64,000 bases of DNA, taken from contig NZ_JAQSDO010000006.1 of the NCBI RefSeq assembly GCF_029945965.1, forward strand, positions 248,001 to 312,000, read 5' to 3'. Below are positions 25,781 to 32,511 of the stretch, piece after piece (the stretch's first letter is position 1; each line of letters begins with the position of its first letter). The notes beneath the pieces were generated by a model. That model was given only the letters and a program-made list of their open reading frames with translations. It was not told the origin of the DNA and ran no database searches. This stretch comes from Thermomonas sp. (lineage in GTDB: Bacteria; Pseudomonadota; Gammaproteobacteria; Xanthomonadales; Xanthomonadaceae). The translations under genes and the position numbers were made by a program.

Positions 25781-25855
25781 GGGCGGTTAGCTCAGTGGTA
25801 GAGCATTACCTTGACATGGTAGGGGTCGGGGGTTCGAAACCCTCACCGCCCACCA
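25781..25855 (+). tRNA. tRNA-Val (GAC)
   Basis: Complete cloverleaf with encoded CCA. Acceptor stem GGGCGGT/ACCGCCC, discriminator A, D-arm GCTCAGTGGTAGAGC, anticodon loop TTGACAT (anticodon GAC), T-loop TTCGAAA. Confidence 0.97.
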
Positions 25856-26720: not shown

Positions 26721-27652
26721 GCGAGCCGAACTCCATCGCGGAAGCGGACATCACGTTCGACCAGCTCCCGGTACAGGCCTTGCAGGCGAGTCACCATCGG
26801 GCCCGGCACGCCATCACCAATGCTCCTGCCGTCCACGCTGCGGACCGGCACCACGCCGGCGAAGGTGCCGGTGCAGAACGCCTCGTCGGCGCCATAGACC
26901 TGGCTCAAGCTGAAATTCTTCTCGAACGCGGGGATATCGGCTTCGCGACACGCCTGCAGCACGTTTGCGCGGGTGATGCCGCCCAGGCAGTAGTCGCCGC
27001 TGGAGGTCCAGACCTCACCTTTGCGCACGATGAAGAAATGGGTCGAATTGCAGGTGGCGACGAAACCGTGCGGATCCAGCATCAGCGCTTCGTCGGCGCC
27101 GGCCTCGATCGCCTGGATGCAGGCGGTGATGCAGTTGAGCTTGCTGTGGCTGTTGAGCTTCGGGTCCTGCACGTCCGGAAAGCCGCGCCGCACGTGCACG
27201 GTGAACAGCTTCAGGCCAGCCGACAGGGTCTCGGGCTTGGGCAGCTTGAACTCGGGAATGATGACCACGGTGGCGCCGCCGGCCGCAGCGCGTGGGTCCT
27301 GATAAGGCGTGCGCTTCGGCCCGCGGGTCACCATCAGGCGCAGGTGCACGCCGTCATGCATGTCGTTGGCGGCAAGGGTGGCGTACAGCGCATCGGTCAG
27401 TGCGCGTCGATCCAGGCCGATGTCGAGCGCGAGTGCTTTCGCACCTTCGTACAGGCGGTCAAGGTGCTGGTCGAGGAAGAGCGGGTGGCCGCCGGCAACG
27501 CGCAGGCCTTCCCATACGCCATCGCCCAGCACGAAGCCACTGTCGAATACCGACACCGTGGCCTCGGCGCGTGGTTTCAAAGTGCCATTGATCCAAATGC
27601 GGATGTCGGCATTGCGTGGGTCGTCGTGGAAATCATGGATGCTCTGCGACAC
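26717..27652 (-). CDS. Class IV aminotransferase (branched-chain / D-amino-acid type)
   Basis: The 311 aa PLP enzyme belongs to fold type IV. Family features are F-D-S-G-F-V-L-G-D-G-V-W-E-G-L-R-V, L-M-V-T-R-G, the PLP lysine in N-S-H-S-K-L-N-C-I, and G-I-T-R-A-N-V-L (phosphate binding). Substrate cannot be told: branched-chain aminotransferase, D-alanine transaminase and aminodeoxychorismate lyase share the fold, and the length fits the first two. It is the first gene of a two-gene operon with the broken sulfotransferase-like gene and is divergent from thrS. Confidence 0.9.
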   Translation of the reverse strand: MSQSIHDFHDDPRNADIRIWINGTLKPRAEATVSVFDSGFVLGDGVWEGLRVAGGHPLFLDQHLDRLYEGAKALALDIGLDRRALTDALYATLAANDMHDGVHLRLMVTRGPKRTPYQDPRAAAGGATVVIIPEFKLPKPETLSAGLKLFTVHVRRGFPDVQDPKLNSHSKLNCITACIQAIEAGADEALMLDPHGFVATCNSTHFFIVRKGEVWTSSGDYCLGGITRANVLQACREADIPAFEKNFSLSQVYGADEAFCTGTFAGVVPVRSVDGRSIGDGVPGPMVTRLQGLYRELVERDVRFRDGVRLA

Positions 27653-27706
27653 GGGCGGGGCCTTGGATTCGGACGATCTTCGAGTCTAGTGCAAAGCCCG
27701 TCTTGA

Positions 27707-27735
27707 TTGACTTTTGGCCTGCCGGCCGCTACTTT
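27707..27735 (+). promoter_or_regulatory. Candidate promoter of thrS
   Basis: TTGACT (27707-27712) and TACTTT (27730-27735) are 17 bases apart. The -10 is weak (3 of 6). A start near 27742 would give a leader of about 160 bases before thrS. Confidence 0.45.
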
Positions 27736-27792
27736 TCATGGCCTCGAAACAAGATCAAGGTGGCCCCGGGAAACTGCGGCCGAGCGTGCGAC

Positions 27793-27882
27793 ATGAGCAC
27801 TACCAACGCCCACTGCTGAACTTCGCCGACGCATTCGAGCCCGCATTTCGTGGGCAATCAAAAGGCGCCTTGGCGCCTTTTT
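27793..27882 (+). promoter_or_regulatory. Candidate attenuator leader of thrS with short Thr-containing peptide
   Basis: A short frame at 27793-27819 reads M-S-T-T-N-A-H-C, with two adjacent Thr codons. A hairpin follows at 27839-27855 (GCCCGC/GTGGGC) and then a terminator at 27860-27882 (AAAAGGCGCC/GGCGCCTTTT plus T run). The GCCCAC of the peptide (27808-27813) can pair exactly with GTGGGC (27850-27855), so alternative folding is possible. The layout matches classical attenuation in size and order. The frame has no strong ribosome site, and an antiterminator that blocks the last stem is not clear, so this is a hypothesis. Confidence 0.45.
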
Positions 27883-27902
27883 CGTTTCCAGAGCCTGACC
27901 CC

Positions 27903-29810
27903 ATGATCGCGATTACCCTCCCCGACGGCAGCCGCCGTGAGTTCGACAACCCCGTCACTGTGTCCGATGTCGCTGCCTCGATAGGTCCCGGGCTGGCCAA
28001 GGCCGCACTGGCCGGCAAGGTCGACGGCCAACTGGTCGACACCAGCTTCCGCATCGACCGCGACGCCGAACTGGCCATCGTCACCGACAAGTCGCCGGAG
28101 GCGCTCGACGTGCTGCGCCACTCCACAGCGCACCTGTTGGCGCAAGCCGTGCAGCGCCTGTTTCCCGGCGCGCAGGTGACCATCGGCCCGGTCATCGACA
28201 ACGGGTTCTTCTACGACTTCGCCTACGAGCGCGCGTTCACGCCGGAAGACCTGCCGGTGATCGAGGCGGAGATGGCCAAAATCGTCAAGGAAGCGTTGCC
28301 GGTGTCGCGCAGCGTGAAGTCGCGCGATGACGCGGTGGCCCACTTCAAGGGCATCGGCGAGGACTTCAAGGCAGAGATCATCGAAGGCATTCCGGCCGAC
28401 CAGGAGCTGTCGCTGTATTCGCAGGGCGAGTTCACCGACCTGTGCCGTGGCCCGCACGTGCCCGGCACCGACAAGCTGCGCGCATTCAAGCTGATGAAAG
28501 TCGCCGGAGCCTACTGGCGTGGTGACCACAACAACCAGATGCTCAGCCGCATCTACGGCACCGCGTGGTTGAACGACAAGGACCTCAAGGCCTACCTGCA
28601 CCAGTTGGAGGAAGCCGAGAAGCGCGACCACCGCAAGATCGCCAAGCAGCAGGACCTGTTCCACCTGCAGGAAGAGGCGCCCGGCCTGATCTTCTGGCAT
28701 CCGAAGGGCTGGTCGATCTGGCAGGTGGTCGAACAACACATGCGCAAGGTCTATCGCGATTCCGGCTACCAGGAAGTGCGTTGCCCGCAAATCCTCGACG
28801 TCGAGCTGTGGAAAAAGTCCGGCCACTGGGACAACTACAAGGAAAACATGTTCTTCACCGAGTCGGAGAAGCGCACCTATGCGCTCAAGCCGATGAACTG
28901 CCCGGGCCATGTGCAGGTGTACAACTCGGGCCTGCACAGCTACCGAGACCTGCCGATTCGTTACGGCGAGTTCGGCGCCTGCCACCGCAATGAACCGTCC
29001 GGCGCGCTGCACGGCATCCTGCGCGTGCGCGGCTTTACCCAGGACGATGGCCACATCTTCTGCACCGAGGACCAGATCGAGGCCGAAGTCACCGCCTTCC
29101 ACCAACAGGCGATGGAGGTCTACAAGACCTTCGGCTTCACGGACGTGCAGCTGAAGATCGCGCTGCGCCCGGAACCGCGCCTGGGTGATGACGCGACCTG
29201 GGACAAGGCCGAACACGCATTGCGCGCCGCGTTGCGTGCCGCCGGGGTGGAATGGGAGGAATTGCCGGGCGAGGGTGCGTTCTATGGTCCGAAGATCGAA
29301 TACCACCTGAAAGACGCGATCGGGCGCACCTGGCAGCTGGGCACGATGCAGGTCGACTTCATGATGCCGGGGCGTCTTGGCGCCGAATACATCGACGAAC
29401 ATAGCCAGCGCAAGCATCCGGTGATGTTGCATCGCGCGATCGTGGGCTCGATGGAGCGTTTCATCGGCATCCTGATCGAACACCATGCCGGCTATTTCCC
29501 GGCCTGGCTGGCGCCGGTGCAGGCGGTGATCATGAATATCACTGATGCGCAGGCGGATTATGTCGACGAGGCTGCGAAAACCCTTGCAAATCAAGGCTTC
29601 CGTGTGATTTCGGATTTGCGCAACGAGAAGATCGGCTATAAGATCCGCGAGCACACGCTACAGCGGTTGCCGTACCTTTTGGTGGCCGGGGACCGCGAGA
29701 AGGAAAATGGCCTGTTGTCGCTGCGCTCGCGGGGTGGAGAAGACCTCGGTACCATGTCCGTTGCCGACTTCGCCGCGCGTTTGCGTGAGGAGCAGGCGAT
29801 CCAGGGTTGA
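27903..29810 (+). CDS. thrS: Threonine-tRNA ligase
   Basis: ThrRS charges tRNA-Thr. The 635 aa product has the N-terminal TGS domain ([14 protein letters not shown]), the editing domain, and the class II catalytic core with the M-N-C-P-G-H zinc segment and the [11 protein letters not shown] motif 3 region, followed by the anticodon-binding domain. I chose the ATG at 27903, where homologues begin; the longer frame to 27714 runs through the leader and terminator. It heads the infC-rpmI-rplT-pheST group. Confidence 0.96.
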
Positions 29811-29916: not shown

Positions 29917-29933
29917 ATATTGGAGAGTGCGAC

Positions 29934-30458
29934 ATCAGTACCACTGACTCGAAGCAGAACCGCAGGAACCAGGAAATCCGCGTCCCGCGCGTACGCGTGA
30001 TCGGCAGCGATGGCGAAATGATCGGCGTGCTGTCGCGCGACGAGGCGCTGACATTGGCCGAGGCCGAAGCGCTCGATCTGGTCGAGATCCAGCCGAACGC
30101 GGATCCGCCTGTCTGCAAGATCATGGACTTCGGCAAGTTCAAGTTCGAACTGCAGAAGAAGAACAACGAGGCCAAGAAGAAGACCAAGCAGGTCGAGATC
30201 AAGGAAGTGAAGTTCCGTCCGGTCACGGACGAGGGCGACTACCAGATCAAGTTGCGCAAGATGCGTGAATTCCTCGAGGTCGGCGACAAGATCAAGGTCA
30301 ACATCCGCTTCCGTGGCCGCGAGATGAGCCATCAGGAACTGGGCCGCGAGATGGCCGCGCGGATCGAGACCGATCTCGGCGAGGACATCGTCATTGAATC
30401 GCGCCCGCGCCTGGAAGGCCGGCAGATGGTGATGATGATTGCGCCGAAGAAGAAATAA
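29934..30458 (+). CDS. infC: Translation initiation factor IF-3
   Basis: IF-3 binds the 30S subunit and checks the start codon and initiator tRNA. The gene starts at a rare ATC codon at 29934, behind a GGAG site at 29922-29925, so the product begins M-S-T-T-D-S-K-Q-N (174 aa), as homologues do. A shorter frame starting at GTG 29997 would lose the N-terminus and is not preferred. Non-AUG starts are the known way infC is autoregulated: IF-3 selects against them. The C-terminal domain ends [10 protein letters not shown]. Confidence 0.95.

Positions 30459-31395: not shown

Positions 31396-32511
<1,116 letters not shown>

Follow-up and report, generated by a model that had tools for sequence, protein, structure and literature searches.

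A putative ribosome-mediated transcription attenuator with a threonine leader peptide before thrS in Thermomonas sp. and its relatives

What controls thrS in Thermomonas sp., and do the short threonine-containing frame and the T-tailed hairpin in front of this gene act together as an attenuator? A preliminary description of the window (the whole stretch of 64,000 nucleotides analysed here) had named a promoter-like pair, a frame reading MSTTNAHC, a hairpin and a T-tailed terminator before thrS, and every one of these parts is present. The features of the locus are as follows.

27707 to 27735, + strand: likely promoter, TTGACT (27707-27712), 17 bases, TACTTT (27730-27735); a motif match, with a poor -10 box
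27757 to 27762, + strand: Shine-Dalgarno sequence AAGGTG of the leader peptide, its GG invariant across the 88-sequence alignment A1
27762 to 27781, + strand: hairpin P1 between Shine-Dalgarno sequence and AUG (27762-27769 with 27774-27781, C.C mismatch at 27766/27777), identified by covariation
27793 to 27819, + strand: leader peptide MSTTNAHC, ATG AGC ACT ACC AAC GCC CAC TGC TGA, with Thr codons ACT ACC as codons 3-4 and the stop codon at 27817-27819
27824 to 27832, + strand: 5' strand of the putative antiterminator (segment 2), CGCCGACGC, starting 5 bases past the leader stop, identified by folding and covariation
27839 to 27855, + strand: small hairpin GCCCGC/GTGGGC (27839-27844 with 27850-27855), not conserved and nested in the antiterminator loop
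27860 to 27885, + strand: intrinsic terminator AAAAGGCGC-CTTG-GCGCCTTTT followed by T's (hairpin 27860-27881); 27865-27867 and 27870-27875 also form the 3' strand of the antiterminator
27903 to 29810, + strand: thrS (threonyl-tRNA synthetase, ThrRS), the gene under putative control; NCBIfam TIGR00418, 697.9 bits against a cut-off of 383.65

The 5' neighbour of the leader region is a leftward aminotransferase gene, and on the other side the terminator is less than 25 bases away from the start of thrS. A promoter scanner run over 27000-28600 reported no promoter, and a search of the whole window against Rfam at the gathering score returned three tRNAs only, with no match at the thrS leader. Taken alone, the 156-base leader folds no better than its shuffles (z -0.76), and it is judged to be beyond chance because of the comparison among relatives. 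The thrS loci with names that lie nearest to that of the window, which comes from the family Lysobacteraceae, belong to Lysobacter, Thermomonas and Luteimonas. Thermomonas beijingensis is probably a member of its genus group, since G020, of the same genus, has the thrS position and upstream sequence in common with the named locus L034.

This comparison was made on 138 thrS loci of the order with upstream DNA, consisting of 58 of the 60 relatives searched (the genome of the window included) and 80 named loci; some genomes are present twice, and the partial matches G031 and G050 lie outside the sample. The order also holds Xanthomonas and Stenotrophomonas, and the loci examined include none with either name. 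A short leader frame was identified before thrS in 132 of the 138 loci (108 by pattern, 20 assigned by hand and 4 added later), while no leader was found at six (L057, L116, L126, L129, L138 and L139). Counts given below rest on the first 128 leaders, which amount to 122 distinct ones, the later additions L061, L062, L064 and L067 being outside these. A strict rule, fixed in a script, required an ATG-initiated frame 5-14 codons long that contains Thr-(x)-Thr and a terminator starting 14-60 bases past its stop, both before thrS. Of 139 loci in the order (one duplicate removed from the 138 and two further loci added; near-identical loci are included and the loci are not independent), 123 passed this rule, against none of 278 dinucleotide shuffles. 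None of 87 thrS loci from other gammaproteobacterial orders passed it.

Conservation of the threonine codons, which the preliminary description had proposed as a check, is borne out: 115 of the 122 distinct leaders possess at least two of them, the other seven having a single one (as does L064, outside the 122), and 87 of the 122 consist of exactly 8 sense codons. Threonine makes up 32.5% of leader residues in frame, its share in the two remaining frames being 9.5% and 2.3%, and all four of its codons are used (ACT 116, ACC 113, ACG 43 and ACA 10); it is therefore the peptide that has been kept, not a string of DNA. The codons are likewise kept in leaders of unrelated sequence such as MTRTAFNA, MNVSFRTTT, MCQQATTTTTP and MKTTTKN. 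On a ThrRS tree of 67 rows, built by a quick method and containing long branches, the rows with leaders cluster together (7 changes, compared with a value of 22.7 for shuffles) and do not form one clade. In eight loci (L113, L114, L115, L117, L118, L119, L120 and L123) the ThrRS is only about 50% identical to that of the window over the first 200 residues and is preceded by the same leader; here the thrS gene may have been exchanged, or may have diverged, under a control region that was kept. A separate resemblance was observed at the start of infC in the window (29923-29948), where GAGAGTGCGAC ATC AGT ACC ACT GAC is similar to the leader start, GAGCGTGCGAC ATG AGC ACT ACC AAC. Among relatives infC often starts with I-S-T-T or I-A-T-T and the leader with M-S-T-T or M-A-T-T, the resemblance being close in the window and looser in the relatives; it may be fortuitous or may reflect an origin of the leader as a copy of the infC start.

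Upstream of the leader ATG, a TTGA[CT]N - 16 to 18 - TANNNT pair was found within 150 bases in 51 of the 122 distinct leaders, and a tRNA T-loop string within 160 bases in 41, the overlap of the two sets being uncounted. A tRNA-Val(GAC)-like gene stands directly before thrS in many genomes, both in and outside the order (L005, L033, L035, L111, L144 and L199). In the window, tRNA-Val (25781-25855) is located about 2 kb from thrS, with leftward frames between the two.

Downstream of the leader stop, a terminator with a score of at least 13 was found before thrS in 121 of the 122 distinct leaders, compared with 11 of 366 after these stretches had been shuffled, and the distance from the leader stop to thrS ranges from 64 to 269 bases. 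Among Dyella genomes (L099, L101, L103 and L105), palindromes resembling CCGGCCATCCATGGCCGG, some of them repeated, place thrS farther from the terminator. Elsewhere in the window, a further terminator-like element was observed between rplT and pheS (31420-31455), consisting of the hairpin GGGGAAGG...CCTTCCCC and a T-rich stretch; a Phe-rich leader frame before this hairpin was not evident by eye.

The preliminary description regarded the absence of a clear antiterminator as its main weakness. One does exist, formed by pairing of 27824-27832 with 27865-27867 and 27870-27875, though the equilibrium model shows it to be weak in the window. Across the leaders, segment 2 pairs with its own terminator at a mean of -16.6, compared with -15.1 (sd 0.2) for exchanged terminators, and none of 2000 permutations was as good, a comparison in which shared ancestry remains. 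Against its own shuffles the gain of the cognate segment 2 is modest (mean z -0.82, with z below -1 in 49 of 122). Exact complements to the terminator loop region are likewise longer in cognate combinations (4.85) than in exchanged ones (3.66, sd 0.15); when one row was kept for each distinct loop (64 rows), the values were 4.53 and 3.50, and none of 1000 permutations was as good. Examples of such complements between segment 2 and terminator are CCCAAGG/CCTTGGG (L042), GCCAGGC/GCCTGGC (L047) and GCCACGC/GCGTGGC (L081). An alternative switch had been suggested in the peptide frame, where GCCCAC (27808-27813) is indeed complementary to GTGGGC. We discarded this pairing, which is probably not the switch: the small hairpin lacks conservation (it is missing, for example, in L014) and is nested within the antiterminator loop.

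The dependence of these structures on the ribosome was analysed for the 122 leaders with an equilibrium model in which the stretch covered by the ribosome is left out of the fold. The mean probability of the terminator was 0.88 with the ribosome at the stop codon and 0.49 with the ribosome at the Thr codons, the latter value rising to 0.75 when segment 2 was shuffled. Between the first and the second of these states the probability fell by more than 0.2 in 66 of the 122 leaders, rose by more than 0.2 in one and did neither in 55. For the leader family as a whole, the predicted antiterminator and the terminator thus exclude each other, and the balance between them depends on where the ribosome stands. 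The window itself shows no switch at equilibrium (0.945 with the ribosome at the stop, 0.941 with the ribosome at the Thr codons), and 105 of the 121 other terminators are better pairing partners for its segment 2 than the terminator of the window. When the window transcript was folded as it grows (ends at 27871, 27874, 27877 and 27881), the antiterminator was the best fold at 27874 (-18.8) and 27877 (-21.4), and the terminator was the best fold at 27881 (-24.6). An antiterminator that stays ahead until the terminator is complete is what a kinetic switch needs, and we infer from this model that such a switch may operate in the window. Pairing of the 14 bases before the ATG with segment 2, a candidate protector (1:2) helix that would allow termination in the absence of translation, had a value of -11.7, compared with -10.6 when shuffled, and was better than shuffled in 67 of 103 leaders of the main type.

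This main type is defined by GTG[CT]GAC directly before the ATG, a string present in 103 of the 122 leaders (L042 and L048 among them, which do not have P1); its order is Shine-Dalgarno sequence, P1 and then a nearly invariant G.GTGYGACATG. Covarying stems, the other sign of conservation that the preliminary description had called for, were identified both in the antiterminator and in P1, a 5' hairpin that does not figure in that description. Seven of the eight pairs of P1 are changed on both sides, giving 37 such cells against 9.7 in shuffles (none of 500 as high). Its cells are paired in 86% of cases, compared with at most 47% when the two strands are slid, one position being a mostly unpaired C.C. 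Counted from the window sequence, folding of P1 would reduce the spacing between Shine-Dalgarno sequence and AUG from 30 to 11 bases. P1 is missing in L042, L048, L111, L122 and L124, and in these the Shine-Dalgarno sequence is located directly before the ATG. Variants of this sequence are AGGAA (L030, L055 and L058) and AGGAG (L026, L027 and L121). A second 5' type, whose leaders start M-T-R, was found in L024, L026, L027, L031, L112, L121 and L125, and also in L061, L062 and L064. In the place of P1 it possesses a hairpin with compensatory stems (GTTC/GAAC, GTCC/GGAC and GCCC/GGGC), and hairpins of differing sequence therefore occupy the gap between Shine-Dalgarno sequence and AUG. Seven distant leaders (L127, L128, L130, L131, L135, L136 and L137) have a TANNNT box ending 6-7 bases before the ATG, which suggests a leaderless start for these peptides. 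A search of 60 genomes with a model of the main 5' type (R1) gave 35 strong sites (E of at most 1.6e-10), each in a different genome. All 35 are located just before thrS (positions compared by eye), the next best match having an E of 0.0067; no strong match of the R1 element was found before genes other than thrS in the 60 genomes. Judged from these matches, the main leader type is dedicated to thrS.

Outside the order, a thrS match was obtained in 181 genomes, and the upstream DNA was read at 87 loci, most of them from the more similar genomes. A looser screen of 89 loci for Thr leaders listed 23 with candidates, of which L140 and L142 belong to the family of the window; ten upstream sequences from this screen were inspected, and in L153, L194 and L197 the candidates overlap the start of a tRNA-Val gene. 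Many of the outside loci possess, close before thrS, a hairpin with a G[TC]GGCC-like stem, an NGU loop and CACTG. This hairpin shows covariation, with 27 cells in which both sides are changed (8.1 in shuffles), and is also present at thrS of E. coli K-12. It has been described that in E. coli a hairpin within the ribosome binding site of thrS is bound by ThrRS, which represses translation (PMC3858243, in part), and we read the NGU-loop hairpin as this known operator. As an observation apart, the loop triplet of operator-type hairpins varies between CGU, AGU, GGU and UGU (e.g. L172, L192, L201 and L224), matching different tRNA-Thr anticodons. With an E of at most 1.3e-4, a model of the operator (R2) identified it in 43 of the 87 outside loci; 38 of these were training rows and five were not. 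The model also matched E. coli, which lies outside its training rows. Within the order it was run over 85 loci (of the 138) and found nothing near thrS, its sole match (E 0.54, in L016) being located about 800 bases from the gene. Within the order the leader-peptide attenuator therefore appears, on sequence comparison, to stand in for the ThrRS operator, an apparent change in the autoregulation of one gene from an operator in the mRNA bound by protein to attenuation by a leader peptide.

Apart from the protector helix, the parts that define a ribosome-mediated attenuator can be read from the sequences, namely an ORF with Thr codons, its ribosome binding site (with P1), an intrinsic terminator and an antiterminator dependent on the ribosome. 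The "possible thrS attenuator with a Thr-Thr leader peptide" of the preliminary description gains support from the conserved Thr frame, the terminator and the covarying antiterminator, and it is very likely that a compact ribosome-mediated transcription attenuator before thrS senses charged tRNA-Thr. RNA polymerase would start near 27742, and a ribosome would bind AAGGTG, with P1 presumably bringing the AUG to within about 11 bases. When Thr-tRNA is plentiful, the ribosome would translate all 8 codons, reach the stop codon (27817-27819) and cover segment 2; the terminator (27860-27881) would then form and transcription would end before thrS. When Thr-tRNA is scarce, the ribosome would wait at codons 3-4 and leave segment 2 free to pair with the 5' arm, the loop and the 3' arm of the terminator as these emerge, provided that pairing keeps pace with transcription. 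The terminator would thereby be blocked, and the polymerase would probably read on into thrS. For a whole bacterial order this offers a concrete, testable means of control for an essential gene.

Other explanations of the locus have to be weighed against this attenuator. The terminator might merely end transcription coming from upstream, for instance from the tRNA-Val gene often found before thrS, with the Thr frame being fortuitous. The T-loop strings within 160 bases of 41 of the 122 leaders speak for such a role, whereas in the window tRNA-Val is some 2 kb away, and the gap of fewer than 25 bases between terminator and thrS lies in a region (27000-28600) where the scanner found no promoter-like match. 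Furthermore, conservation of the Thr frame exceeds chance and extends to unrelated sequences, segment 2 covaries with the terminator, and outside the order, where tRNA-Val also often precedes thrS, none of the 87 loci has the Thr arrangement. This explanation is highly improbable. It is still less credible that the leader ORF acts at the level of translation, by re-initiation or by coupling to thrS, instead of at that of transcription. According to one proposal, leader genes enhance translation of the gene that follows them through re-initiation (PMC4833913, in part), but a terminator stands between ORF and thrS in 121 of the 122 leaders, and the spacing of leader stop and thrS, anywhere between 64 and 269 bases, is ill suited to coupling.

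Binding of the leader by ThrRS itself, in the manner of E. coli and with the peptide being secondary, is very unlikely as the main mode of control. P1 is located within a ribosome binding site, as is the hairpin bound by ThrRS that interrupts the ribosome binding site of E. coli thrS (PMC3858243, in part), and both P1 and many of the operators in alignment A2 begin with GTGGCC. Against this, the operator model found nothing near thrS in the 85 loci of the order, and the loops of P1 vary, an NGU triplet occurring in only 12 of 88, with that of the window not among them. A related and rather doubtful idea, to be given somewhat more credit, retains attenuation and takes P1 as a second sensor gating ribosome start on the leader: P1 might be a former ThrRS operator hairpin, and a two-input attenuator might have replaced the translational operator. 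If so, thrS would integrate two signals, one of them being charged tRNA-Thr as sensed by the Thr codons.

Lopatovskaya et al. (2010, Mol Biol 44:128) are said to have treated attenuators of amino acid and aminoacyl-tRNA synthetase operons. A report of an attenuator of this kind for thrS was not found in the literature searched; the surveys of Lopatovskaya et al. (2010) and Vitreschak et al. (2004) may already list thrS, and no priority is therefore claimed.

Classical attenuators of synthetase operons have been described for pheST in gammaproteobacteria (its leader gene, pheM, is annotated in E. coli) and for trpS and leuS in Streptomyces (PMC1262725, in part). The thrS leader resembles them in that a synthetase gene is preceded by a leader peptide and by alternative structures; it differs in the gene and amino acid concerned (thrS and threonine), in its length of mostly 8 codons, in the position of the Thr codons near the start, in the hairpin between Shine-Dalgarno sequence and AUG and in lacking a well-supported protector (1:2) helix. 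In bacilli, His leader peptides found by terminator screening precede hisZ and a hisS paralogue (PMC2965389, a source whose main text has no occurrence of 'thrS'; consulted in part); these also control genes of the synthetase family through a leader peptide, and they concern another amino acid and another phylum. A T-box precedes thrS in almost all Firmicutes (PMC2494555, in part) and likewise makes thrS transcription dependent on tRNA, by direct binding of the tRNA, whereas the leader described here would rely on decoding by the ribosome and has no Rfam match at the locus. The E. coli operator controls the same gene and also interrupts a ribosome binding site with a hairpin (PMC3858243, in part); unlike the leader, it acts on translation and possesses the NGU-loop hairpin, which was not found near thrS in the 85 loci of the order. 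Among these systems, and as far as its predicted parts indicate, the thrS leader is a new member of the ribosome-mediated attenuators, with the split start site as a variant part. For such a site the closest parallel is found in genes 38 and 25 of phage T4, where a hairpin shortens the spacing between Shine-Dalgarno sequence and AUG from 22 to 5 and from 27 to 11 bases, respectively (PMC3014915, in part), as the covarying P1 would do here from 30 to 11. Unlike these phage genes, the predicted split site of the thrS leader starts the leader peptide of a putative attenuator, and with P1 a split ribosome binding site would be conserved on bacterial chromosomes.
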